Source: a candidate division WOR-3 bacterium (lineage in GTDB: Bacteria > SDB-A). From it: a DNA stretch of 33,117 nt. The notes under the pieces were generated by a model. That model did no database searches. It had not been told where the DNA came from and saw only the letters and a list, made by a program, of their open reading frames with translations. The first letter of the stretch is position 1. Each line of letters starts with the position of its first letter. Where the stretch lies: positions 1 through 33,117 of the forward strand of contig JAFGSQ010000003.1 of NCBI GenBank assembly GCA_016934535.1, written 5' to 3'. The position numbers and the translations under genes are program-made. Positions 2,998 through 14,970 of the stretch are shown here, in pieces.

Positions 2998-4161
2998 ATG
3001 ATTTTTAAAAAATTTATTCCGGCCGTTATCCTGGTCTTTTTGGGTTCGCTGACCTTGACCGGGTCTTCCGTGTGTGTTGAGGACGTGCCCGACGACGACG
3101 GCACGGCTCTTATAATCAGTTGGGAGCCGCCAGGAGACATTCCGGGATTTTTCATGTACAAAATATACAGAAAAGACTCTCCGGACGGAGAATTTATCCA
3201 GGTCGGGAAATCGAGTAAAATTGAAAATTGTGTTTTTGTTGACAGGGATCCGCGATATCCTCTTAATGCCGGCATGAATGTTGTATACAGAATAGTCGCT
3301 AATGACGAAGAAGGAAACGAAATTAAGGAAATAGGAGTTTCGGAAGTATTTTCCTCCTCACATTCATTTTTCAACGGGTCAAAAATCAACACTTTCATAG
3401 CTGTGACGTTTGTTTTTACCACATTGATTTCTTTTCTCACATTGGCTAAAAAAGATAAAAAACTTTTTATAAGAAAAATAGCGGGACTTGACGCTCTCGA
3501 TGAAGCAGTCGGAAGAGCGACTGAGATGGGCAGGCCTGTCCTTTACGTCCCCGGTCTTTCGACTATGGACGACATAGCGACCGTAGCCTCTATAAACATC
3601 TTGGGGCCTGTTGCAAAAAAAGTGGCCGAATATGAGACAAAGATTCTTGTTCCGAACAGGAATCCTATCGTCTACACAATAACACATGAGGTCGTCAAAG
3701 AGGCTTATCTTGAAGCGGGAAGACCCGATGCTTTTCAGGAGGACCAGGTCTTCTTTGTTTCTGAGAGTCAATTTGCATACGTAGCGGCTGTAAACGGTAT
3801 AATGATGAGGGAAAAACCCGCGACCAACCTGTTTTTAGGCATGTTCTGGGCAGAATCTCTTCTATTGGCTGAAACAGGAAACGCGACCGGAGCTGTCCAG
3901 ATTGCCGGAACAGACTCTGTGACACAATTGCCCTTCTTCGTAACTTCATGCGACTACACTCTGATAGGGGAGGAACTCTACGCAGCGAGCGCTTACCTCT
4001 CTCGTGATCCGGTCCTCGTCGGAACAATAAAGGCGCAGGATATTGAAAAAGCCATAATTCTTATCCTTCTCGTCCTACTTTCCATTTTAGCGATAATGAA
4101 TTTTAATTTAATTCGTTCAGATAATTTTTCAAGATTAATTATGTCTTTTTTTGGAACATAA
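2998..4161 (+). CDS. Membrane protein with FN3-like and DUF6754-like domains (cassette A, gene 1)
   Basis: The 387-residue protein has an N-terminal signal or anchor segment (about 7-24) and an FN3-like domain (about 28-120; CVEDVPDDDG, SWEPP, YKIYRKDSP, VVYRIVAND). A membrane helix follows (130-149), then a cytoplasmic domain (156-351) that I recall as Pfam DUF6754, and a second helix (about 352-370). FN3 should lie outside the cytoplasmic membrane and the DUF domain inside. The DUF domain opens with IAGLDALDEAVGRATEMGRPVLYV and contains AGTDSVTQLPFFV, suggesting an alpha/beta fold; no catalytic motif is recognised. The start is 2 bases after the preceding stop, with GAGGAG at 2986-2991. A close copy lies at 6356-7507 and a remote one at 7948-9066. 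Confidence 0.7.
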   Translation: MIFKKFIPAVILVFLGSLTLTGSSVCVEDVPDDDGTALIISWEPPGDIPGFFMYKIYRKDSPDGEFIQVGKSSKIENCVFVDRDPRYPLNAGMNVVYRIVANDEEGNEIKEIGVSEVFSSSHSFFNGSKINTFIAVTFVFTTLISFLTLAKKDKKLFIRKIAGLDALDEAVGRATEMGRPVLYVPGLSTMDDIATVASINILGPVAKKVAEYETKILVPNRNPIVYTITHEVVKEAYLEAGRPDAFQEDQVFFVSESQFAYVAAVNGIMMREKPATNLFLGMFWAESLLLAETGNATGAVQIAGTDSVTQLPFFVTSCDYTLIGEELYAASAYLSRDPVLVGTIKAQDIEKAIILILLVLLSILAIMNFNLIRSDNFSRLIMSFFGT

Positions 4162-4201
4162 ATATGGAGCGTTTTACACATATATCTAAAGGAGCAGGGA
4201 A

Positions 4202-4822
4202 ATGTTTTTAAAGAGGACTCTTCCCCTTCTCATAGTCTTTCTGCTCGGTCTGGCTATGATGATTCAGTTTTTCATACCACATCCTATCTCTCAGCAATTT
4301 TATGACAGCATGGCAGATTGGGTGAGGATTTCCGGAGCTTTCGCCTTGATACTCGGACTCGCCAGTTTTTTCTATGTTCATTCAAGAAAACTCGCCAGAA
4401 AAAACAAGGACAGTTTTTTCTCGGGAGTTGCCATGTTCTGTCTCATCGGGATGGCTGTTATAGGTATTTTCGGCAGAGGGGGAATAAACGGCTGGCTTTT
4501 CTCGAATCTGTATAGAAGTGTAAATGTATCTCTCGATGCGACCATGTTCTCTCTTCTTTCTTTTTACATAGCTTCAGCCGCGTTCAAAGCTTTTAAGGCG
4601 AGGAATGCCATGGCATTTGCCCTATTAGTGACGGCGGTCATAGTTATGTTGGGAAGAGTCTCTTTCGGAAGTTTTCTGGACGGAATCGTTGAGTGGATAA
4701 TGGTCTATCCGAACACTGCCGCTCAGAGAGGTATTATTCTCGGTATTGGTCTTGGAATGATAGCTACCTCACTGAAAATAATGCTTGGCATCGAGAGGTC
4801 CTATCTCGGAGGAGGAGACTGA
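4202..4822 (+). CDS. Polytopic membrane protein (cassette A, gene 2)
   Basis: The 206-residue protein has about six hydrophobic helices (near 8-25, 44-60, 73-90, 107-128, 137-153 and 174-193). It carries basic loops after the second helix (HSRKLARKNKD) and near the C-terminus. No enzyme or transporter motif is recognised. It is homologous by eye to the protein at 9063-9698: RISGAFALILGLASFF parallels RVLSGFILIAGILRVI, and RGIILGIGLGMIATSLKIML parallels RGFLLAFFCLVFADRIRVLL. Its stop overlaps the next start (TGATG 4820-4824), so translation is coupled. AAAGGAGCAGGGAA precedes the ATG. It is probably a structural subunit of the same membrane complex as its neighbours. Confidence 0.6.
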   Translation: MFLKRTLPLLIVFLLGLAMMIQFFIPHPISQQFYDSMADWVRISGAFALILGLASFFYVHSRKLARKNKDSFFSGVAMFCLIGMAVIGIFGRGGINGWLFSNLYRSVNVSLDATMFSLLSFYIASAAFKAFKARNAMAFALLVTAVIVMLGRVSFGSFLDGIVEWIMVYPNTAAQRGIILGIGLGMIATSLKIMLGIERSYLGGGD

Positions 4823-5700
4823 TGAAATTCTGGCTTTTCATGGACAAATTGGACAGGAGATGGCTGTTTTTACTGATCGGCCTTTCAGTTATTATCCCTT
4901 CCATAACTAATCTGAGGTTTCCCGTGACGACGACGCCCCCGACTCTAAACCTCTGGAATTTTGTGGACAGTTTGAAATACACAAAAAAGCCTTTGATTAT
5001 TATATGCGATTATTCTCCTTCAACGTCACCTGAACTCCAGCCGATGGCTCACGCACTTTTCAGACACGCTCTCGAAGCGGATATTCCTGTCATCCTTTAT
5101 GGAGGACTTTACACAGAGGGATTTGGACTCGCAAGAATAGCCGAAGAGACCGTCCTCGAGGAGATGAATTTTCACAAAGCAAACGGTGATTCCATAGTCT
5201 ATGGCAAAGACTATGTATTTTTACCATTTGTTCCAGGTGGTCTTGCAGTAATTGCAGGAATGGGAGAAGATTTCATAGGAACTTTCAGAGTTGATGCGCG
5301 GGGAGACAGTTTGAAATTAATGCCCATGATGGATAATGTCAGGAGACTCGAAGACATAGGTTTGATAGTTGATATTGCCGGGTCTGCTGTATCGAGGACC
5401 TGGATGGTCTATGCCGGAACGAGATACGGAACGCCTGTAGGAGTCGGAACTACTGCTGTAAGCGCCGCCGAATATTACACTTTCCTTCAGACCCGTCAAT
5501 TCGTCGGTATGCTGGGAGGAATGAAGGGCGCTGCTGAATACGAGGAACTCAATGCTAAGAGACTGAACATTGAGGTCAGAAAACAGGCAGGTATAGCCAT
5601 GGCTTCCCAGAATTTCGTCCACCTTTTGATAATCTTCATGGTAATACTCGGCAACATTTCCTTCTTCGTCCTCAAAAGAAACAGGGATAGGAGGTCCTGA
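4822..5700 (+). CDS. Bitopic membrane protein with large extracytoplasmic domain (cassette A, gene 3)
   Basis: The 292-residue protein starts at ATG 4822, which overlaps the previous stop and follows GGAGGAG. The frame is open further upstream, but that part is an antisense-like stretch inside the previous gene. One helix near residues 13-32 and one near 262-284 bracket a domain of about 225 residues that includes LIIICDYSPSTSPELQPMAHAL and EADIPVILYGG. This gives an alpha/beta pattern with an acidic residue at the end of strand 1, reminiscent of Rossmann-like folds, but no known family is identified. The counterpart at 9682-10422 matches in VVAILDFSPETWDEMAP and EIVVLSTD. The stop overlaps the following ATG (TGATG 5698-5702). 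Confidence 0.6.
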   Translation: MKFWLFMDKLDRRWLFLLIGLSVIIPSITNLRFPVTTTPPTLNLWNFVDSLKYTKKPLIIICDYSPSTSPELQPMAHALFRHALEADIPVILYGGLYTEGFGLARIAEETVLEEMNFHKANGDSIVYGKDYVFLPFVPGGLAVIAGMGEDFIGTFRVDARGDSLKLMPMMDNVRRLEDIGLIVDIAGSAVSRTWMVYAGTRYGTPVGVGTTAVSAAEYYTFLQTRQFVGMLGGMKGAAEYEELNAKRLNIEVRKQAGIAMASQNFVHLLIIFMVILGNISFFVLKRNRDRRS

Positions 5701-6347
5701 TGCATCTTTCAACTAGCATTTGGGTTTGGATAGCGGCTTTCCTGACCCTTACAATTTATTCCTTTCTTTACAAGGACAATCCTCTCTACAGATTTGCCGA
5801 ACATGTTTTCGTAGGAGCTTCCGTCGGATGGTCAATTGCAATTGTCTGGCACATGACAGCTATTCCGTATATAGGCATTCCTTTGAGAGATGCCGTCATT
5901 CAGAGAAACTGGCCCGGATTTATCTACGTAGCAATACCGACATTACTTGGATCTCTCTATTTTTTCAGATTCTTTCCTAAACAGAGCTGGTTGGCAAGAT
6001 GGCCTATCGCCGTGATGATGGGATATTACTGCGGAATATCAATATCCCCGAGCATTGAAGCTAATATTTTTGCACAAGTTCAGGGGACTATTCTCACTGG
6101 TTTCAACCCTACCAGTTTGAATTCCTGGTGGGCTCTGCTTCTTCTCATTGGCGTCGTATCAACTCTCTTCTATTTTTTCTTTTCTCTCAAGCACGAAGGA
6201 TTTGTAGGAAAGACTTCGAAACTCGGAATATGGTTTGTCATGATAGCCTTCGGCGCCTCATTCGGTTACACAGTCATGGCGCGTGTCTCTCTTTTAATCG
6301 GCAGAATCCAGTTTCTTCTCCACGACTGGCTCGGAATTCTGAGATGA
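5700..6347 (+). CDS. Polytopic membrane protein (cassette A, gene 4)
   Basis: The 215-residue protein has about six hydrophobic helices and ends in a short amphipathic tail. AGGAGG at 5690-5695 and the TGATG overlap fix the start. It aligns by eye with the protein at 10422-11015: SFLYKDNPLYRFAEHVF parallels SFFWRESFLFRGAELLA, and PIAVMMGYYCGISISPSIEANIFAQV parallels the stretch around PMSIFVGVGTALLLEGIVEG. This makes it the fourth matching pair between the two cassettes. No catalytic motif is visible. It is likely an integral subunit of the same complex. Confidence 0.6.
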   Translation: MHLSTSIWVWIAAFLTLTIYSFLYKDNPLYRFAEHVFVGASVGWSIAIVWHMTAIPYIGIPLRDAVIQRNWPGFIYVAIPTLLGSLYFFRFFPKQSWLARWPIAVMMGYYCGISISPSIEANIFAQVQGTILTGFNPTSLNSWWALLLLIGVVSTLFYFFFSLKHEGFVGKTSKLGIWFVMIAFGASFGYTVMARVSLLIGRIQFLLHDWLGILR

Positions 6348-6355
6348 AGTGAAAC

Positions 6356-7507
6356 ATGAAAACTATACTAGGCTCAATAATCTTTTTGATGAGCTTTTCG
6401 GTTGTCTTCGGCGGTGTCACCGTCGAAGACGTTCCGAACGACGACGGATCGGCTCTATATGTAATCTGGAATCAGACAGATAATCCTGATGCCTCGGGTT
6501 ATATGGTCTACAGAAAAGATTCTCCCGAAACGGGATTTTTCATTTTATCAAGAATTGGATCGGTTGCCGAGACAGTATATGTTGATTATGATCCGCGGTA
6601 TCCTCTCGAAGCCGGAATGGATGTCTCCTACAAAATCGTTGCGATGTCTCAAGAAGAGGAAGAACTGGAAGTCATGGGCGAAAGTTCTGTCTTCAGCTCG
6701 TCCGCTTCCTTTTTTAACAAAACCAAGATTAACACATTCATTGCAACTGTTTTTGCCTTTATTCTCATAGTGTATTTTATAAATTCAGTAAAAAAAGGAA
6801 AAACACTTTTTATAAGAAAAATTGCTGGACTTGACGCTCTCGATGAAGCCGTCGGAAGAGCGACTGAAATGGGAAGACCCGTCCTTTACGTTTCAGGTCT
6901 TGGATACATGGAAGATATTGCTACTGTAGCTTCTATAAACATCCTGGGACCAGTCGCAAAAAAAGTAGCCGAATACGAGACAAAGATTATTGTTCCCAAT
7001 TTTGATCCTATTGTTTACACAGTCACATCCGAAGTCGTAAAAGAGGCTTATCTTGAAGCGGGAAAGCCCGACGCTTTCAATCCCGATCAGGTGTTCTTTA
7101 TCTCAGAACACCAGTTTGCTTATGTCGCCGCTGTAAACGGAATAATGCTCAGAGAAAAACCGGCGACTAATCTTTTTTTAGGCATGTTCTACGCCGAATC
7201 TCTTTTATTGGCTGAGACAGGAAACTCTACAGGTGCAATCCAGATAGCCGGAACAGACGCAGTAACACAACTTCCGTTTTTTATAACTTCCTGTGACTAT
7301 ACATTGATTGGCGAGGAACTCTATGCAGCGAGCGCGTATCTCTCGAAGGATCCTGTCCTCTGCGCGACTATCAAGGCACAGGACATTGAAAAAGGTTTGT
7401 TGATGATATTTCTCGTGTCTCTTTCGATACTTTCCATATTGAACGTATTCGTTTTCAAGTCAGACATAATCTGGAGGTTCATCTCGGCATTCTTCAGGGT
7501 AGAGTAA
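6356..7507 (+). CDS. FN3-like/DUF6754-like membrane protein, close paralogue of the 2998-4161 gene
   Basis: The 383-residue protein has the same layout as the 2998-4161 product: signal or anchor segment (about 3-20), FN3-like domain (21-118), helix (125-143), cytoplasmic DUF6754-like domain (151-345) and final helix (346-364). Hand alignment of the cytoplasmic domain from LFIRK to DIEK gives about 23 differences over 196 positions. The FN3-like halves and the two helices are much more divergent. The start is 8 bases after the previous stop with only a weak purine stretch before it (GATGAAGTGAAAC). Retention of two copies bracketing one set of membrane genes suggests a heteromer or alternative subunits. 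Confidence 0.7.
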   Translation: MKTILGSIIFLMSFSVVFGGVTVEDVPNDDGSALYVIWNQTDNPDASGYMVYRKDSPETGFFILSRIGSVAETVYVDYDPRYPLEAGMDVSYKIVAMSQEEEELEVMGESSVFSSSASFFNKTKINTFIATVFAFILIVYFINSVKKGKTLFIRKIAGLDALDEAVGRATEMGRPVLYVSGLGYMEDIATVASINILGPVAKKVAEYETKIIVPNFDPIVYTVTSEVVKEAYLEAGKPDAFNPDQVFFISEHQFAYVAAVNGIMLREKPATNLFLGMFYAESLLLAETGNSTGAIQIAGTDAVTQLPFFITSCDYTLIGEELYAASAYLSKDPVLCATIKAQDIEKGLLMIFLVSLSILSILNVFVFKSDIIWRFISAFFRVE

Positions 7508-7947
7508 AAACAGTTGGTTAATTCTTGATTTAATGAAAAAAGTCACCTTAAAAGTGCCTGTTTTTGTTTCTGTTTTATGCTCAAAAAAAAGTAAAAAATC
7601 AGATCAGCTTGTTACCGAATATTAACCAAAGGACATATCAGAATTTATTTTTGATACTTTCTTGGTAGCGACAGAAAACTCAACAATGTTGGGCTTGTCT
7701 ACGAAATGGGAAGAGGAAAACTTTTTAGCCGTGGTAGATATCTCTCATTCTTTTTTTTAGCGTTACGATATTTTCATCTATGATGAAAAATCGGATTCGC
7801 GTCAATTCGCGGTTAATATTCTTTTCTTTTATTCGCCGATATCTTTGTTTTTTAAAGTTAATTGCTCATTGATATTTGCCTTTTTAGATGTAGAATTTTA
7901 TAAATGGTGAAAATATTGATAACGAACCTTAAAATGTCCGCAAGAAA
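7508..7947. other. 440-base AT-rich intergenic gap
   Basis: This is the only stretch over 300 bases without a supported gene. It is clearly more AT-rich than its surroundings and has several poly-A and poly-T tracts. It contains a perfect 8-bp hairpin (TTTTCATC 7771-7778, GATGAAAA 7782-7789), a direct repeat ATTCGCG (7795-7801 and about 7806-7812), distant complementary halves AAAAACAG/CTGTTTTT just after the upstream gene, and a possible promoter near its end. The only small reading frame noted (7533-7625, 30 codons) lacks a ribosome site. No tRNA or recognisable riboswitch was seen. Confidence 0.6.
7869..7896 (+). promoter_or_regulatory. Candidate sigma-70-type promoter before cassette B
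   Basis: TTGATA (7869-7874) and TAGAAT (7891-7896) are separated by 16 bases, about 50 bases before the ATG at 7948. TATAAA at 7899-7904 is an alternative -10. The setting after a long AT-rich gap fits, but chance matches are common in AT-rich DNA. Confidence 0.35.
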
Positions 7948-9066
7948 ATGCAGGCGTTAGCGGTTTTAATACTCATTGCGGGACTCGATCCCGAACCTCC
8001 GCCGTCTGTCAAGGCCGCGGACATACCCGACGACCGCGGCGGGGTGATAGAAATTTCCTGGACAAGAAGCTTGTCTGACACGACGGGAAATATAAACAAT
8101 GTTTGGGGATACAGGATTTTCAGGATACAGGCTCATACCTTCGACACGCAGTTTCTCGGATTCCGAGACAGATGGTCTGATCTCGTTTTCACGGATTCAA
8201 CGGCAGTTGACGGAACGGTTTACGTTTACTGTGTCCAAACAAAGTCTTCCACCGGCGTATCGGACCTCACGTATTCAAAACCTGTGAAATCGAGAAGCTC
8301 GTTTTTCAGAGCCAGGAGACTTGCGGTCGCCTTGGCAGTCCTTGCCGGTGTATTGGTTTTTATCTTTTCCAAAGAAAAAACTTCGGATTTTTTCAAAAAA
8401 AAGGCAATCGGCGACAGTATTTGCTGGGCCATGGAAAAAGGGAAAATCGTCATGGTCATTTTAAGCTACGAAAATCCCTCTTCAAGAAAAGGCGTTTCGA
8501 GAACTCTAACAGATCTCAAATGGATTGCTGAAAAAGTCATTTCGGCGAAAGGGGAGATAAGGGTTCTGACTCCCGGTTATCTTCAGGGCGCCGCCACAGG
8601 TATTTTCAGGGAGATATTCATGAAAGAGGGGCGTCTTCAGGATTTCAATCCACTGTGGATAAGAAGGACATGGTCGGGAGGAGTATCTTATTCGGATGAA
8701 GCGACAAGACTGATAAGCAAATGGAAGCCTGGTATTGTTATGATAACGGGAGAACCGGGAGTTTGGACATTTCAGCCTCTCAATAAAATTTTAAGCCTCG
8801 GCGGTAAGATAGTTGGCATAAAGACCGATCTGCATTTTCTTCCCGCGGTTTTGTCTTCCGGCATTAGGATCGAAAACATTTCGGGGGCCCTTTCGGAGGT
8901 TTTTTCACCGGGACCCGTCAATAAAAAATACTGCTGGGCTATTATTTTTTTTATATCGGTTTCGCTGGGCTATCTGTTGTTGTGCTGGATGCTGATGGGT
9001 ACTGACGGCCTTGATCCAATATTATCTTTGAGAAATTTTCTTCCTTTTCTAAAGGCGGTTCCGTGA
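7948..9066 (+). CDS. Divergent FN3-like/DUF6754-like membrane protein (cassette B, gene 1)
   Basis: The 372-residue protein keeps the layout of the cassette A first gene: hydrophobic N-terminus, FN3-like domain (about 22-115; KAADIPDDRGG, ISWTRS, YRIFRI), helix (about 125-140), cytoplasmic domain and C-terminal helix (330-350). The cytoplasmic domain is strongly diverged but alignable: AEKVISAKGEIRVLTP parallels AKKVAEYETKIIVP, and GRLQDFNP parallels GKPDAFNP. The AGTDSVTQLPFF-type segment is lost. ATG 7948 is the only start after the in-frame stop at 7930. It lacks a good ribosome site and gives a signal peptide without an N-terminal positive charge, so the 5' end deserves care. Confidence 0.6.
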   Translation: MQALAVLILIAGLDPEPPPSVKAADIPDDRGGVIEISWTRSLSDTTGNINNVWGYRIFRIQAHTFDTQFLGFRDRWSDLVFTDSTAVDGTVYVYCVQTKSSTGVSDLTYSKPVKSRSSFFRARRLAVALAVLAGVLVFIFSKEKTSDFFKKKAIGDSICWAMEKGKIVMVILSYENPSSRKGVSRTLTDLKWIAEKVISAKGEIRVLTPGYLQGAATGIFREIFMKEGRLQDFNPLWIRRTWSGGVSYSDEATRLISKWKPGIVMITGEPGVWTFQPLNKILSLGGKIVGIKTDLHFLPAVLSSGIRIENISGALSEVFSPGPVNKKYCWAIIFFISVSLGYLLLCWMLMGTDGLDPILSLRNFLPFLKAVP

Positions 9067-9698
9067 ACCTGATATCATCTGTCGTCGCGATATTGATGCT
9101 CGTTTTGTTTTTCGCCGTTTCAGGTTCTCCGGGAGAAATAATTGAAAGAGAAATGCTTTATGGTTTCAGGGTGCTTTCGGGTTTCATACTGATTGCCGGA
9201 ATTCTGAGGGTAATAGGCGTAAACTACAACAGGCGCAAATCGGGAGGTAAACAGGCGGTTTCAGGAGTTCTGTTTCTTCTGACGGCTTCAGCGTTTTTCA
9301 CTCTGTTTTCCCTCGACGGTTTTACAGGCACGGCTCCATCAAAGTTTGTGTTGCGAGCATTCGCCATACCTCTCTGGACAGGTTTTGCCTCACTTTCGGG
9401 TCTGGCATTGTGCGCCGCGGTACTTAGATCCGCCGGGTTTAAAAAGTGGGAATCCGCCGTCGCGGTTTTCACAGCCTCGTTTTTTTTGCTGGCTCTGACG
9501 CTTCCGGAAAATGTCTTCAGGTTTCAAGCCGTTCCAGGAAAACAGATCTATTTTAACGACGTCGCTTCCGGTTTGTTCGAGATAGTTTTAACAGGCGGAT
9601 TGAGAGGTTTTTTACTCGCTTTCTTCTGTCTCGTTTTCGCCGACAGGATAAGAGTGCTCCTCGGCAAGGAAAAAAGAACCGATGAATATACGCCCTGA
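9063..9698 (+). CDS. Polytopic membrane protein (cassette B, gene 2)
   Basis: The 211-residue protein starts at GTG 9063, which overlaps the previous stop (GTGA), with AAAGGCGG at 9050-9057 as ribosome site. It has about six hydrophobic helices. It matches the 4202-4822 product in position, size and local sequence (RVLSGFILIAGILRVI; RGFLLAFFCLVFADRIRVLL). Its 3' end overlaps the next gene by 17 bases. No enzymatic motif is seen. It is probably the cassette B version of the same membrane subunit. Confidence 0.55.
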   Translation: MNLISSVVAILMLVLFFAVSGSPGEIIEREMLYGFRVLSGFILIAGILRVIGVNYNRRKSGGKQAVSGVLFLLTASAFFTLFSLDGFTGTAPSKFVLRAFAIPLWTGFASLSGLALCAAVLRSAGFKKWESAVAVFTASFFLLALTLPENVFRFQAVPGKQIYFNDVASGLFEIVLTGGLRGFLLAFFCLVFADRIRVLLGKEKRTDEYTP

Positions 9699-10422
9699 CT
9701 CTTCAAACACGCTGATATGGATATTGACAGCCGCTTCGCTGGCCGGTTTTGCCGCCGGAATACCGGCTTTCAGACCTTACACTGAAAAAGACGGTTCATT
9801 TCCAACAAGTTCCGGAACAGGGAGAGTGGTCGCGATCCTCGATTTTTCTCCAGAAACCTGGGACGAAATGGCGCCTGTCTGCGTGTCGGTTATAAAATCG
9901 CTTCTCGAAGAAAGGAACGAGATCGTCGTCCTGTCAACAGACCTGTGCGCCGCTTTCTGGTTCGACGCTTTTTCAGAAAAATTCAGGGTAAAAGACAAAT
10001 CCGGCGAGTCGTGGTCGCAAATAAGATGGGCAGGATACATGCCCGGTTTCCCTTCGAGCGCAATAGAGATATTCAGGGAACCTTATCTGGTCACGGGGGA
10101 TTCCCTTTTCGGCCGGGAAAAAGTAAAGTATGTCATATTTTCTTCGGGGGAAAATTTTCACCACTGGATCTTTTTCGGATGGGCTCGAAACAGACCGGAA
10201 GCCGTTTATTACACCTCTTCGTCATTTTACCCCCAGGCTTATCTATACAAATCTTCAGGTCAGGCTGAATATATAAGCCAGGGCATCGCTTTTTTTGAAG
10301 GAAAGGAATTTTCGAGAAGAAAAGCTTCGGTTTCATGGTTTTGTTTTGTTTTCTCAGTTGTCCTTGTTTCCAAGACAGTGTTTTCTGGGGTAGGAAGATT
10401 TTTGCAAAGAGGGAAAATTTGA
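9682..10422 (+). CDS. Bitopic membrane protein with extracytoplasmic domain (cassette B, gene 3)
   Basis: The 246-residue protein has an N-terminal helix (about 10-28) and a C-terminal helix (about 216-235) around a domain containing VVAILDFSPETWDEMAP and EIVVLSTD. These correspond to LIIICDYSPSTSPELQP and IPVILYGG in the 4822-5700 product. A further match is YYTSSSFYPQAYL against YYTFLQTRQFVGML. It is about 45 residues shorter than its cassette A counterpart. ATG 9682 overlaps the preceding gene by 17 bases, with AAGGA at 9666-9670. Its stop overlaps the next start (TGATG 10420-10424). Function unknown. Confidence 0.55.
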   Translation: MNIRPDSSNTLIWILTAASLAGFAAGIPAFRPYTEKDGSFPTSSGTGRVVAILDFSPETWDEMAPVCVSVIKSLLEERNEIVVLSTDLCAAFWFDAFSEKFRVKDKSGESWSQIRWAGYMPGFPSSAIEIFREPYLVTGDSLFGREKVKYVIFSSGENFHHWIFFGWARNRPEAVYYTSSSFYPQAYLYKSSGQAEYISQGIAFFEGKEFSRRKASVSWFCFVFSVVLVSKTVFSGVGRFLQRGKI

Positions 10423-11015
10423 TGGAATTCATGCTCGCTGTTTTACTGACAGCGGCCGTTTTCAGCTTTTTCTGGAGAGAGAGTTTTTTGTTCAGAGGCG
10501 CCGAATTGTTAGCTTACGCGGTGACTCTGGCGCTGATAAGCAGGGCCGTTGTCAAATATTTTTTTGAACCTCAGCTGGTCATTGCCTCGGAATTCATGCC
10601 GCGATATCTGTGGTACGTTATCGGATCCGGAATCGTGCTCGGCGAGATACCTAAATTAAAAAAAATTGCCCGAGTGCCTATGAGTATTTTTGTCGGTGTG
10701 GGTACGGCACTTTTACTCGAAGGGATAGTCGAGGGTTTTATGATTCCTCAGATTTCCGCTTTTTTGCGCTTTGACCCCGAAACTGTCCCTATGCTGAAAG
10801 CTTTCGCCGTGGCATCAACGGCTTTAGCAGTGATGGTGTTTTTCGTTTTGCCGGTCCAATCTAAAAACAGCGCCTCCGCAGTTTTGAAAGTTTTCGGAAA
10901 AACCGTGTTGTTTTTCATTTTGGGAGTAATGCTGTCCGGTCTTGTTTTCACCGCCGCCACTTATATTTCGGGGAGGATATCGGCGTTTTACAATCTTGGA
11001 AGGAGTTTTTATTGA
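10422..11015 (+). CDS. Polytopic membrane protein (cassette B, gene 4)
   Basis: The 197-residue protein starts at ATG 10422, overlapping the previous stop and preceded by AGAGGG (10408-10413); the longer open frame upstream lies inside the previous gene. It has about five or six hydrophobic helices. The N-terminal region (FSFFWRESFLFRGAELLAYA) matches the cassette A fourth gene product (YSFLYKDNPLYRFAEHVFVG). Its stop overlaps the TTG start of the LipM-like gene, so that gene is in the same operon. Function unknown. Confidence 0.55.
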   Translation: MEFMLAVLLTAAVFSFFWRESFLFRGAELLAYAVTLALISRAVVKYFFEPQLVIASEFMPRYLWYVIGSGIVLGEIPKLKKIARVPMSIFVGVGTALLLEGIVEGFMIPQISAFLRFDPETVPMLKAFAVASTALAVMVFFVLPVQSKNSASAVLKVFGKTVLFFILGVMLSGLVFTAATYISGRISAFYNLGRSFY

Positions 11016-11779
11016 GGTTGGAACGGGTCAGAAATTCCGAGGACATAATAGCCTGTCACATGGCAAACGACGAAGCTTTGCTCGAATGCGCGATAAAGAA
11101 CAAAAAAGCCGGTGCCGTTATAAGATTTTATTCTACGGTTTGCCCGGCGCTGACCGTCGGCAGAAACCAGAAAATCATGCATGAATTTATAAAGTCATGC
11201 GAATACAACAAAGTGCAAATCACAAGAAGACTTACAGGAGGCAGAGCCGTTCCTCATTTCAGGGAGATAACCTATTGCGTCGTCGCTCCTCTCAAAGGAG
11301 TTTTTTCAAAAGGCGTCGTGGAAAGCTTCATGATAATTTCTGAAAGGCTTGTACGGGGAATAAAGAGCGCGGGGGTGACAGCCGACATTTCAAGAGTCGA
11401 AAGAGGCGAAAACGGTACTGTGTCCTGTTTCGATTCTGTGGGAAGGCATGAAATAACCGTCGAGGGACACAAAGTCCTTGGAAGTGCCCAGTTCAGAAAA
11501 TCCGGTTATCTTCTTCAGCAGGGCACACTCGTCTACAGAAAACTTCCCTCCGAACTCGAAACGATACTAAACTTTAAAAGCGTTTCAATAGAAGAGGCGA
11601 CAGACCGCATTCCCTTCTGGGAGGAGACCGCTGATAAAATGTTCGAATCCGTCGCCGGTTTGTTTGACGGAATTCCTGACGTCAGGGAACTTGACGAAGA
11701 GGAAAAAACCTTTTCGGCGAATGTACTCGCTAAATATGCGGGATTGTCAAGCTTTAACCATGGGGAACTTGAAAAATAA
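11012..11779 (+). CDS. LipM-like octanoyltransferase / lipoate-protein ligase family protein
   Basis: The 255-residue protein belongs to the BPL/LplA/LipB superfamily. Residues 72-82 (RRLTGGRAVPH) form the ligand-binding loop, and CFDSVGRHEITVEGHKVLGSAQ (from Cys139) matches the LipM region with the catalytic cysteine and the following lysine. LipM moves octanoyl from acyl carrier protein to the lipoyl domain of GcvH or a dehydrogenase E2. The cysteine favours LipM over an ATP-using ligase, though a lipoate-ligase role cannot be excluded. The start is TTG 11012, with GGAAGGAG at 10998-11005 and overlap with the preceding stop. No lipoate-bearing protein is adjacent, so co-location with cassette B is unexplained. 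Confidence 0.8.
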   Translation: MRLERVRNSEDIIACHMANDEALLECAIKNKKAGAVIRFYSTVCPALTVGRNQKIMHEFIKSCEYNKVQITRRLTGGRAVPHFREITYCVVAPLKGVFSKGVVESFMIISERLVRGIKSAGVTADISRVERGENGTVSCFDSVGRHEITVEGHKVLGSAQFRKSGYLLQQGTLVYRKLPSELETILNFKSVSIEEATDRIPFWEETADKMFESVAGLFDGIPDVRELDEEEKTFSANVLAKYAGLSSFNHGELEK

Positions 11780-11787
11780 AAACCGCA

Positions 11788-11816
11788 TTGATTTAAGAAT
11801 GATTTCATTGTATAAA
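11788..11816 (+). promoter_or_regulatory. Sigma-70-type promoter for the PATAN/roadblock operon
   Basis: TTGATT (11788-11793) and TATAAA (11811-11816) are separated by exactly 17 bases. They lie in the gap after the LipM-like gene, 36 bases before ATG 11852. The predicted transcript start is near 11823, leaving a short leader with AAGGAGG at 11841-11847. Confidence 0.6.
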
Positions 11817-11851
11817 ATATTCTACATCTTCAGGTTCTATAAGGAGGCAAA

Positions 11852-12718
11852 ATGGCTATTCAATGCAATATTACTGACGCGAGCCCCAGTGAATTGCTTT
11901 TTTTCCTTTCGCATTTCAAAAAAACGGGAACTTTAAAACTCCAGAGCAAAAACAGCGAAGGAGAGATTTTTATCAAATCCGGCAGAATAGTTCACGCAGT
12001 GAACAAGGACGTTGTCGGATTGGAAGCGCTTTACAACCTCGCCATGATACAGGATGGCCAAATAAGTTTTTTTCAGGACGAGGTTCCCGCGTCAGAGACT
12101 ATTGCTGAAGAATCCCTGCAGGTTATCAGCGAAGCAGAGAGAAGAAGAGCCGAACTTGCCGATCTTATGAAAAGAGTGCCTCCTCTTGAAACGGTCCTTC
12201 AGAGAGCGATTAAGCTTTCCATCGACGAAGATGTCACTCTGAGAAAGAGCGACTGGAAAGTTTTTGTCATGACGGACGGAAAAGCTCCTCTCAGAAAAAT
12301 AATTGAGACTTCAAATATTGGTATGCTTGAAGTTTACTCGAGCATAACCTGGCTACTTGAAAAAAACTACATCGTGGATCCGGTCGCGGCAATCAGAGAG
12401 CTCAAAACGAGTCTTTTCAAACTTAATGAACTCGTCAAAGAATTCGGGGAAGGCGGCGTTGGAGTGCCGGCCTGGATATCCTTTCTCAAAGAGCAGGTCA
12501 AGAAATACGATCCTGACGATTCAAAACTCGGGCCATTTTTGACCTGGAATTCGGACAGCCTTCAGATCCAGGAACAGAACGTTACGCCTAAAAACGGCGC
12601 TGTGCTTAACGAATTCCTTCAGAAGCTGATAACTATAATTCTCGAAAAAGCCGTTAATGATTACGGCAGAATAATAGCCAAAAGAAAATACGATCAGGTC
12701 GTCAAGAGGATTTCCTGA
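11852..12718 (+). CDS. DUF4388/PATAN-domain protein
   Basis: The 288-residue soluble protein has an N-terminal DUF4388 (PATAN) domain at about 1-85. The family pattern reads SELLFFLSHFKKTGTLKL, then GEIFIKSGRIVHA and GLEALYNLAMIQDGQISFF. Such domains usually occur in bacterial signalling proteins alongside response regulators or small-GTPase partners. Residues 90-288 are mostly helical; around 105-180 (APLRKIIETSNIGMLEVYSSITWLL) resembles the winged-helix-like repeat often found after PATAN. ATG 11852 has AAGGAGG at 11841-11847. The two following genes encode roadblock-like proteins, suggesting a polarity, motility or surface-organisation pathway, but no GTPase is present. Confidence 0.65.
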   Translation: MAIQCNITDASPSELLFFLSHFKKTGTLKLQSKNSEGEIFIKSGRIVHAVNKDVVGLEALYNLAMIQDGQISFFQDEVPASETIAEESLQVISEAERRRAELADLMKRVPPLETVLQRAIKLSIDEDVTLRKSDWKVFVMTDGKAPLRKIIETSNIGMLEVYSSITWLLEKNYIVDPVAAIRELKTSLFKLNELVKEFGEGGVGVPAWISFLKEQVKKYDPDDSKLGPFLTWNSDSLQIQEQNVTPKNGAVLNEFLQKLITIILEKAVNDYGRIIAKRKYDQVVKRIS

Positions 12719-12721
12719 CAA

Positions 12722-13462
12722 ATGGCCGACACGGCAAAACTGACAGAAAACGCCAAATCCCTGGGTGAAAAAATATTTAAAACAGGCGGAATAAAAACCC
12801 TCGAAGTCCTGAACTCACTTGACGGCGACCTTCTTTTCACGGCCGGCGCAACCGACTCAAGCCTCTACGACATAACGGCGTTCATAGGATCGGTCAGCGC
12901 TCCTGTGTCCAAAACCATGAAGATTGAAAATCTGAGATATGCGGTTGTCGAATGCCGCAACGGGACATCTGTACTCATAACCGAGGAAAGCTACATCATT
13001 GGAATAAGATGTGCCGGGGAAACCGATCCTGACGAAGTCGCAAAAAACGCAATTGTCGCATTACAACCTGACAAAACCGCTGTTTCAGAAGCCGTCCGCT
13101 CAACGACCGTCCAGTCGAAAGAGGCCAGGCTGGCATCAGGCAAGATAAAACAAATAAACCTCCTCATAGACGAATTCTCTCTGGACAACGAAGTGAGACC
13201 ATGGCTGGATCTCGTTGAAAGGAAACTCGAGGAATTCAGGGGGCAAAAAGCCCTGGTGGATTATCTTGAGATCAGAGAGGACAGGCTGGCTTTACTGCCG
13301 ACGACAGACGAAATTGACGAGAAAGAAATCAACGAGGTTTCTAAAAATCTGATCGACTCGCTTTGCAGGCTGGCTATTGAGAAACTGGGACCGGACGCGG
13401 CGAAAAACAAGGTTCACAATGTCATCCAGAAGATGGGATTTCTGGCCAGGAAAAAGGATTGA
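12722..13462 (+). CDS. Roadblock/LC7-like protein
   Basis: The 246-residue soluble protein has an N-terminal region (about 15-115) with roadblock/LC7 character: GIKTLEVLNSLDGDLLFTAG, a helix-rich middle, then LRYAVVECRNGTSVLITEESYIIGI. Roadblock proteins such as MglB regulate Ras-like GTPases. The C-terminal 120 residues are helical and charged, ending in basic residues (GFLARKKD). It lies 3 bases after the PATAN gene and overlaps the next gene by TGATG (13460-13464). The ribosome site is weak (GAGG at about 12706), consistent with translational coupling. Assignment is by pattern only. Confidence 0.5.
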   Translation: MADTAKLTENAKSLGEKIFKTGGIKTLEVLNSLDGDLLFTAGATDSSLYDITAFIGSVSAPVSKTMKIENLRYAVVECRNGTSVLITEESYIIGIRCAGETDPDEVAKNAIVALQPDKTAVSEAVRSTTVQSKEARLASGKIKQINLLIDEFSLDNEVRPWLDLVERKLEEFRGQKALVDYLEIREDRLALLPTTDEIDEKEINEVSKNLIDSLCRLAIEKLGPDAAKNKVHNVIQKMGFLARKKD

Positions 13463-14238
13463 TGATGGACCCCCTGGAGATTCTCAGAGAAGCGACCGCA
13501 GCGGCAAAAGTTTTTATCTGCGACAATTCGATCTGCAGAGAAGCGGGAGATCTCGAGGGGATTGAACTCGGCGGAAGCGATCTTTTACGGGCTTGCGGTT
13601 CCGTCAAGGGAGCCGCCGCAAGCATAAACGGAGACGAGGTTTTTAAAATAATCTTTCATGGTTCGAACGTAACCGTCGCTTTCGTGAAACAACCATTGGA
13701 TACTATCTGTCTACTCTGGCAGGAACAGATTGCGACTCTCGTCCAATTGAACAGAGTTGACGTCGCCGTTAAAAATATGCTCGAACCTCCTGTGGCGGCG
13801 GAACCTCCCAAAGAAGAAAAAGCTGAAACACCCGAACCTCCTGTTACGCCGGAAGAGACTGCGACTGCGTATAAGGAACCGGAACCCGAAAAACCGCCTG
13901 AAGAAGAGAAAATCGAACCTCCCCCCCCAGAAATAGTTCCCGAGAAAACCGTACCTGAGCCCTCCGCAAAAAAGATAACATACGACGCTGAGGCAATTGA
14001 CATGATCGAGTCCGTTCTTGAAAAATACCTCGACGATTTCAGTTCCGTAATATTCGACAACGAGATATCTGACCTCGGCTTAAAGCTGAAAGGCGCCGAA
14101 TCTTTTTCAAAGGATCAGATAGATCTGCTCATAAAAAAACTGCACGACGCCGCCTCCCTGATTGTGGGCGGCACCACCGCGCACGAAATGCAGGAAGATA
14201 TCATGAAATCAATTAAAGATGCGGAAAGGGAGGCTTGA
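13462..14238 (+). CDS. Roadblock-like protein with Pro/Glu-rich linker
   Basis: The 258-residue protein is taken from ATG 13462, which overlaps the previous stop; TTG 13459 and ATG 13465 are also possible, and AGGAAAAAGG precedes. Residues 1-105 look like a second divergent roadblock-type domain (ICDNSICREAGDLEG; GDEVFKIIFHGSNVTVAFV). Residues about 108-172 are a linker of Pro, Glu, Lys and Thr. The last 85 residues are a helical domain with KITYDAEAIDMIESVLEKYL. The linker includes a run of eight C at 13921-13928 encoding prolines, a possible slippage site. The two halves may tether partners of the preceding proteins. Function unknown. Confidence 0.5.
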   Translation: MMDPLEILREATAAAKVFICDNSICREAGDLEGIELGGSDLLRACGSVKGAAASINGDEVFKIIFHGSNVTVAFVKQPLDTICLLWQEQIATLVQLNRVDVAVKNMLEPPVAAEPPKEEKAETPEPPVTPEETATAYKEPEPEKPPEEEKIEPPPPEIVPEKTVPEPSAKKITYDAEAIDMIESVLEKYLDDFSSVIFDNEISDLGLKLKGAESFSKDQIDLLIKKLHDAASLIVGGTTAHEMQEDIMKSIKDAEREA

Positions 14239-14241
14239 TAA

Positions 14242-14628
14242 ATGGCTCTTATTTCGTTATTGGTGACGGCTCAGGGGCTTCCTCCGGACGTTCAGAACCT
14301 CTGGACCGTGAAAACGTGGGCCGCCGTTGTTTCGGCCATGTTTTTATGGCTCGCGTTCGTTTTGCTCGGTTTGGCGGCGAGGAATTATCAGAAAGTCCTA
14401 AGGCAGACAACCGAGTGGCAGTTTCTCGTTATTGCTCCGTCGGGCATTCTGATTTATGCCGTAATTCAGGCAGTCTTGCTCGTGACGGCCGGAAAATACA
14501 GGCTGGTAGGGATGACCGGATACATCGGGTACGGTTTGTTTCTCGTATCTGCGGTCATAACTCTCGTCGGCACGCTCAGGTTTTACGGAGTCATAAAAGG
14601 CAAGAGAAGAAAAAAGCAGGGGAGGTGA
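14242..14628 (+). CDS. Small membrane protein, about three helices
   Basis: The 128-residue protein has hydrophobic segments near 24-45, 61-82 and 92-110 and a strongly basic tail (KGKRRKKQGR), which should be cytoplasmic. GGGAGG precedes ATG 14242 and the gene follows the preceding one by 3 bases, so it is in the same operon. No family is recognised. It could be the membrane anchor of the roadblock-like proteins. Confidence 0.55.
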   Translation: MALISLLVTAQGLPPDVQNLWTVKTWAAVVSAMFLWLAFVLLGLAARNYQKVLRQTTEWQFLVIAPSGILIYAVIQAVLLVTAGKYRLVGMTGYIGYGLFLVSAVITLVGTLRFYGVIKGKRRKKQGR

Positions 14629-14634
14629 AGAGCC

Positions 14635-14970
14635 GTGGTTAAAACTATGCTGGCTGAACAGCTTTTCATGATAGGCGAGATTGCTCTCGTTTTGGCTCTT
14701 ATAATTTACGGTCTAATACTGAAAAGGCTTCTCAAACTACTGAAAAAGTCGCCGATTTTCTGGATCATGCTTATAGTTTCCGGCCTGTTCGTGCTTATGT
14801 CCCTCGTTTTTCATGCAATTGGGGTTTATGAAAAAGGCTCGGTTGAAGATCCGGTCGAATTGATGAGAACTCTCGGTATGATGGGGCTTCTGGAAGTTGC
14901 CGCGATTTTCGTTGGAAGCGTTATGGCTATATTTTCTGGAGTGCTTTACAACAGATGGTCTCATAGGTGA
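14635..14970 (+). CDS. Small membrane protein, about three helices
   Basis: The 111-residue protein starts at GTG 14635; GGAGG at 14621-14625 fits this, and ATG 14647 is the alternative. Helices lie near 10-30, 40-63 and 83-105. A basic loop KRLLKLLKKS (30-39) follows the first helix, and a short acidic stretch (EKGSVEDPVE) lies between helices 2 and 3. It forms a pair with the preceding small membrane protein and ends the operon. No family is recognised. Confidence 0.5.
   Translation: MVKTMLAEQLFMIGEIALVLALIIYGLILKRLLKLLKKSPIFWIMLIVSGLFVLMSLVFHAIGVYEKGSVEDPVELMRTLGMMGLLEVAAIFVGSVMAIFSGVLYNRWSHR

Follow-up and report, generated by a model that had tools for sequence, protein, structure and literature searches.

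The DNA analysed here, a 33,117-nucleotide stretch of a candidate division WOR-3 genome (the window), carries the same succession of four membrane-protein genes twice, and it raises the question of what the second set is: another machine, another half of the first one, or a remnant. A sequence-only reading had placed an FN3-DUF6754 protein followed by a polytopic, a bitopic and a second polytopic protein at 2998–6347 and again at 7948–11015, and this gene order was right once the starts of A3 and B4 had been corrected to 4822 and 10422, where each ATG overlaps the upstream TGA. The first cassette, on the forward strand like U1, U2, A1p and B1–B4, comprises A1 (2998–4161; 387 aa), in which the PF20539 match and hydropathy give the order TM/signal, FN3, TM, DUF6754, TM; A2 (4202–4822; 206 aa), polytopic with ~5 TM by family HMM, conserved gene order and hydropathy; A3 (4822–5700; 292 aa), a putative TM, Rossmann-like outer domain, TM protein by family HMM and a low-confidence AF2 model; and A4 (5700–6347; 215 aa), polytopic by family HMM and hydropathy. 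Two canonical partner genes precede it: U1 (38–1864; 608 aa), a MutL/GlmL-type ASKHA ATPase (Pfam PF13941, E = 7e-130), and U2 (1868–2995; 375 aa), a barrel-sandwich-hybrid protein. The eight cassette genes that had been listed are all present, but a further DUF6754 gene between the cassettes, A1p (6356–7507; 67% identity to A1), had been overlooked. A1p is a full DUF6754 gene without its own A2–A4 and has the same placement at three other loci (L024, L025 and L027). Extra A1 genes were also seen in L086, L115, L118 and L123. The full window order, with the A and B loci adjacent, recurs in L024.

The second cassette consists of B1 (7948–9066; 372 aa), B2 (9063–9698; 211 aa), B3 (9682–10422; 246 aa) and B4 (10422–11015; 197 aa). 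HMMs of the A families, each built from 86–99 canonical sequences with B excluded and run with the database size set to 4019 ORFs, matched the window copies of B1, B2, B3 and B4 at E = 8.5e-11, 1.5e-5, 3.6e-3 and 2.3e-9, respectively, and matched no non-corresponding B family at E < 1. The reverse search with B HMMs at E < 1e-3 recovered 83 A1, 14 A2, 5 A3 and 61 A4 proteins and zero off-diagonal proteins. When 13 profiles (78 pairs) were compared by hhalign, the diagonal pairs took the first four ranks (A1/B1, 99.4%; A4/B4, 97.9%; A2/B2, 94.4%; A3/B3, 90.8%), off-diagonal A/B pairs reached at most 1.1%, and the only other notable value was 50% for A2 against a decoy membrane protein, D4. Diagonal-only matches together with membrane decoys rule out chance or hydrophobic composition as the source of the pairing. 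A homology of the A1 and A3 domains was unsupported (hhalign, 1%). A3/B3 was the weakest of the four pairs, and the A3 HMM gave E = 1.4e-7 with the G003 orthologue of B3 versus the much weaker value with the window copy. Comparison of single sequences within the window was significant for A1/B1 (8e-7) and weak for A4/B4 (9e-4), and was not significant for A3/B3 (0.016) or A2/B2 (0.34). Judged by the profiles, each of B1–B4 is homologous to exactly one of A1–A4, in order. The similarity that had been noted by eye for all four pairs is therefore real; the three quoted peptide pairs lie in or beside aligned columns, and the HMM–HMM comparison that had been proposed as a check returned a match for every pair.

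Both sets thus follow the A1-A2-A3-A4 order with four homologous genes in a single orientation, and they differ strongly in sequence. B1 keeps the FN3-TM-domain-TM order, and its global alignment with A1 runs end to end (326 columns), but it lacks the conserved C-terminal motif and most DUF6754 signature residues. A1 (392 bits) and A1p (381 bits) are clear members of Pfam PF20539 (DUF6754), a family of unknown function, whereas B1 has no Pfam DUF6754 match and its G003 orthologue reaches 23.3 bits against a cut-off of 27. Because B1 scores under the Pfam gathering threshold, B is a diverged relative and not a DUF6754 member. Of the columns with a conservation of 85% or more in canonical cassettes, B1 keeps 8/84, B2 6/39, B3 5/33 and B4 11/46 (30/202 in total), counts that partly depend on gap placement.

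The canonical cassette is widespread. DUF6754 was found in 102 of 386 genomes, about a quarter of a sample drawn from hundreds of bacterial family codes, in 0 of 14 named control genomes and, as relatives of any kind, nowhere on the viral contigs scanned. The order A1-A2-A3-A4 on one strand holds in nearly all of ~64 regions, many of which carry two or three tandem cassettes. Many of the sampled genomes are MAGs and some operons are cut by contig ends (G001 and G002 around B, and B4 of G003); gene identifications marked below as by eye come from sequence inspection rather than a family search. One or three extra A3 genes follow the cassettes in L082 and L083. The window's MAG has a further U1-U2-A1-A2-A3-A4-A1p operon on another contig, of 7.9 kb (L025, G000:C36), and its cassette is 88% identical; it may be contamination, which is estimated at 3.92% for this MAG, or a recent operon duplicate.

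U1 and U2 often lie upstream of the cassette and appear to belong to it. U2 was present in 97 of the 102 genomes with DUF6754, versus one marginal match in the 284 without (Fisher p = 5e-84, with the relatedness of genomes ignored), and U1 usually sits beside U2 (by U2 or the cassette in ~20 loci). Mean column identity was 68% for U1 over 13 relatives, with the phosphate motifs DCGSTTTK and VDIGGATTD intact, and 62% for U2; such strong conservation suggests a basic role. In the relative L074, the U2 domain matched PF00364 (E = 3.5e-5), RnfC_N (5.6e-5) and NQRA_N (2.3e-4). U1-like and U2-like regions are fused in a single protein of 1009 or 1045 aa in two genomes (L193, 293–3319; L194, 3303–6437), which argues that U1 and U2 act together. 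U2-like matches within frames of ~1000 aa were seen in several further genomes. Even genomes with several cassettes normally have a single full-length U2, for example G137 with six DUF6754 genes and one U2, so one U1-U2 pair may serve several membrane complexes.

Hydropathy and the positive-inside charge pattern place the DUF6754 domain in the cytosol and the A3 domain outside; FN3 would also face outward, and A2 and A4 would lie in the membrane. The FN3 region of A1 matches titin FN3 chains and folds at pLDDT 73–88, while the A1 model as a whole, made from a 4-sequence alignment, has pLDDT 46 and is good for FN3 only; sequences for folding came from the window and related loci alone, so the alignments were shallow. 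The A3 model, made by AF2 from a 2-sequence alignment, is of low confidence (pTM 0.55) and alternates strands with helices, so that the outer domain looks Rossmann-like in the model; no PDB fold matched A3 below E = 1e-3. FN3 is not essential to the cassette, since the A1 proteins of L105 (266 and 276 aa) are without it. Read most simply, an ATPase and its adaptor would act as a pair on a membrane complex of four subunits. The alpha cassette A1–A4, the type found in the window, would form a widespread inner-membrane complex with an A2/A4 membrane core and with FN3 and the A3 Rossmann-like domain facing outward; its putative cytosolic partners, the ASKHA ATPase U1 and the barrel-sandwich adaptor U2, would dock on A1 at its cytosolic DUF6754 domain and, by spending ATP, drive the membrane complex or reset it.

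The neighbouring genes provide a possible metabolic hint, in the form of glycine-cleavage and lipoate-ligase-like genes. Glycine-cleavage genes lie just upstream of small genes and U1 in L024 (GcvP2 by Pfam), L070 and L124 (by eye), and lipoate-ligase-like genes lie downstream in L022, L071, L089 and the window, where the gene follows B1–B4. The order of a lipoate-ligase-like gene, a DUF4388 gene and several small genes behind the cassette in the window (11012–14970) looks like that at positions 14133–18455 of L089, from another family, going by gene size and sequence starts. Two small conserved genes (~128 and ~147 aa) precede U1 in a subset of loci (L074, L091, L105 and others); neither matched a Pfam family at cut-off, and the ~147 aa product has a predicted membrane segment (by eye).

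In a tree of 119 canonical cassettes, the midpoint split one type, alpha, which includes the window's A cassette, from another, beta, which includes a cassette on contig C42 of the same MAG; the window itself holds the alpha member only. A mixture-model tree of 64 family representatives reproduced the alpha/beta split (SH-aLRT 96) at the cost of one label change. In the separate gene trees, 2, 1, 4 and 5 label changes were needed versus ~39 for shuffled labels, so the histories of the four genes nearly agree; the labels came from the concatenated tree, which makes the comparison a check of concordance rather than an independent test. Tandem neighbours do not cluster with each other but with the corresponding copies of other families (e.g. 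L071, L088 and L123), so the tandem copies predate those families. Both types occur together in 28 of 35 multi-cassette genomes; counted by family, the pairing was found in 18 of the 23 that have several cassettes, where 14.4 would be expected, and its enrichment was not significant (p = 0.08, label shuffling). On the evidence of these trees, the ancient whole-cassette duplication in this family is alpha/beta, and it is seen in all four genes.

B has a very different distribution. Each of the four genomes in the window's family has it, and 0 of the 382 others do at a comparable score, the best B3 match outside the family being 19 bits versus 416–439 within it; among named genomes, a scan picked up B in a candidate division WOR-3 MAG and 'Desulfuromonas sp. 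SDB' and in no other. B also evolves quickly. In one genome pair, dN was 0.26–0.34 for B versus 0.04–0.07 for A (~4–8-fold) with similar dS, and tree distances across the same genomes put B at ~3–7 times the rate of A. The claim that a whole cassette had been duplicated and both copies kept stands: all four B frames are intact in genus members, those of the second genus are intact as far as sequenced (B4 is cut by the end of its contig), the overlaps between starts and stops are retained, and dN/dS is ~0.1–0.15, with dS near saturation. That B is instead a decaying, functionless relic, as the loss of most signature columns and the fast evolution might suggest, is hardly credible given these intact frames, overlaps and dN/dS.

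The age of B is a separate matter. The sequence-only reading took its far divergence as a sign of great age. On a rival account of that kind, A and B separated before the phyla radiated and B was then lost everywhere except in the window's family. Midpoint rooting does set B, as the most distant branch, outside all canonical cassettes, and its stems are long in all four genes (2.0–2.8 changes per site). However, family restriction, the ~3–7-fold faster evolution and an ambiguous tree position undercut the equation of divergence with age, and long-branch attraction is expected for such a sequence. The proposed phylogeny of each pair gave B no common position: the four gene trees disagree on where it belongs, FastTree and mixture models gave it no stable place, and AU tests rejected none of three placements (with its own alpha, p = 0.29; with its own beta, p = 0.27; with all alpha, p = 0.56). 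The B stem measures 2.55; corrected for a rate 3–7 times higher, it shrinks to ~0.4–0.8, close to the 0.47 of alpha and the 0.59 of beta in the same family. By this rough argument an origin of B on the family's own stem is plausible, and we regard a split before the phyla, which would require the absence from 382 genomes to reflect loss, as unlikely.

A second restricted gene pair bears on what B does. All four genomes of the window's family contain, on a separate contig (L202–L205), an adjacent and diverged pair, U1'-U2', in every case next to an arginyl-tRNA-synthetase-like and a purC-like gene (by eye). Full-length U2' was found in these four genomes and in no other of the 386, with canonical U2 reaching at most 70 bits over ~180 residues versus 442–849 bits. 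Identity within the genus was 56–62% for U1' and 43–51% for U2', falling to 29–34% across genera, whereas canonical U1 and U2 are 81% and 72% identical across those same genera; this pace matches that of B. With B1–B4 and U1'-U2' taken together, all six genes of the operon have counterparts that evolve fast and are confined to the family. The phosphate-2 motif of U1' looks degraded in some members, which makes ATPase activity of U1' doubtful. U1'-U2' could derive from U1-U2-like fusion proteins rather than from canonical U1-U2, and its co-restriction with B in four related genomes could be a coincidence of lineage.

We infer that the second set probably builds a related, specialised membrane complex with its own ATPase pair rather than contributing subunits to a ring shared with A. 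The six-gene set is present twice over in the window's family, with B1–B4 placed beside alpha and the adjacent U1'-U2' on another contig; the second set has kept fold order, topology and operon coupling while evolving fast and losing signature residues, and distribution and rate suggest that B and U1'-U2' work together. The earlier reading had allowed for either two related complexes or a single one with a pseudo-symmetric core, and the first of these is favoured. In the single hetero-complex, each B subunit would sit opposite its A homologue, as might be expected from the one-to-one pairing of all four genes, from the position of B next to the alpha operon at adjacent loci (the window and L024), and from the alpha and beta cassettes that elsewhere are often tandem in one genome. 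The members of a single complex usually evolve under shared constraint, but B evolves several times faster than A and has lost near-invariant residues; a distinct U1'-U2' pair, matching B in distribution and pace, also suggests a separate machine. We therefore prefer a second complex and consider the pseudo-symmetric one quite improbable.

In its broadest form, for which our confidence is evenly balanced, the proposal is that U1, U2 and the four-subunit cassette constitute a widespread, undescribed machine that exists in two ancient, co-retained forms, alpha and beta, and that the lineage of the window carries a complete, retooled third set with its own ATPase and adaptor. The cassette and U1-U2 occur nearly always together in about a quarter of the sampled bacterial genomes. 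That a whole membrane complex of several subunits has been duplicated more than once, with its old paralogues kept next to each other, offers a tractable case of complex duplication and specialisation, and the B/U1'-U2' set shows which residues are needed by the canonical machine and dispensable in a diverged one.

The view that such a system had not been described before agrees with our literature searches: those for DUF6754 and PF20539 found no paper naming either, and GlmL and context searches returned nothing relevant. At the thresholds used, A2, A3 and A4 were without relatives in Pfam, NCBIfam or the PDB. U2 contains, as seen in the relative L074, a barrel-sandwich hybrid related to the N-terminal domains of RnfC and NqrA (PF13375 and PF05896); its matches are near or below cut-off, the remainder of the protein matched nothing, and its neighbourhood showed no Rnf or Nqr subunits. 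In U1, the MutL domain is complete and is accompanied by the phosphate motifs of the GlmL/MutL family (PF13941; TIGR01319 glmL_fam), which comprises glutamate mutase accessory ASKHA proteins. No mutase gene was recognised among the window ORFs or the neighbours examined, and U1 falls under the NCBIfam equivalog cut-off for GlmL (237.8 versus 475 bits, NF040745). It differs from GlmL by a C-terminal extension and by sitting with U2 and DUF6754.
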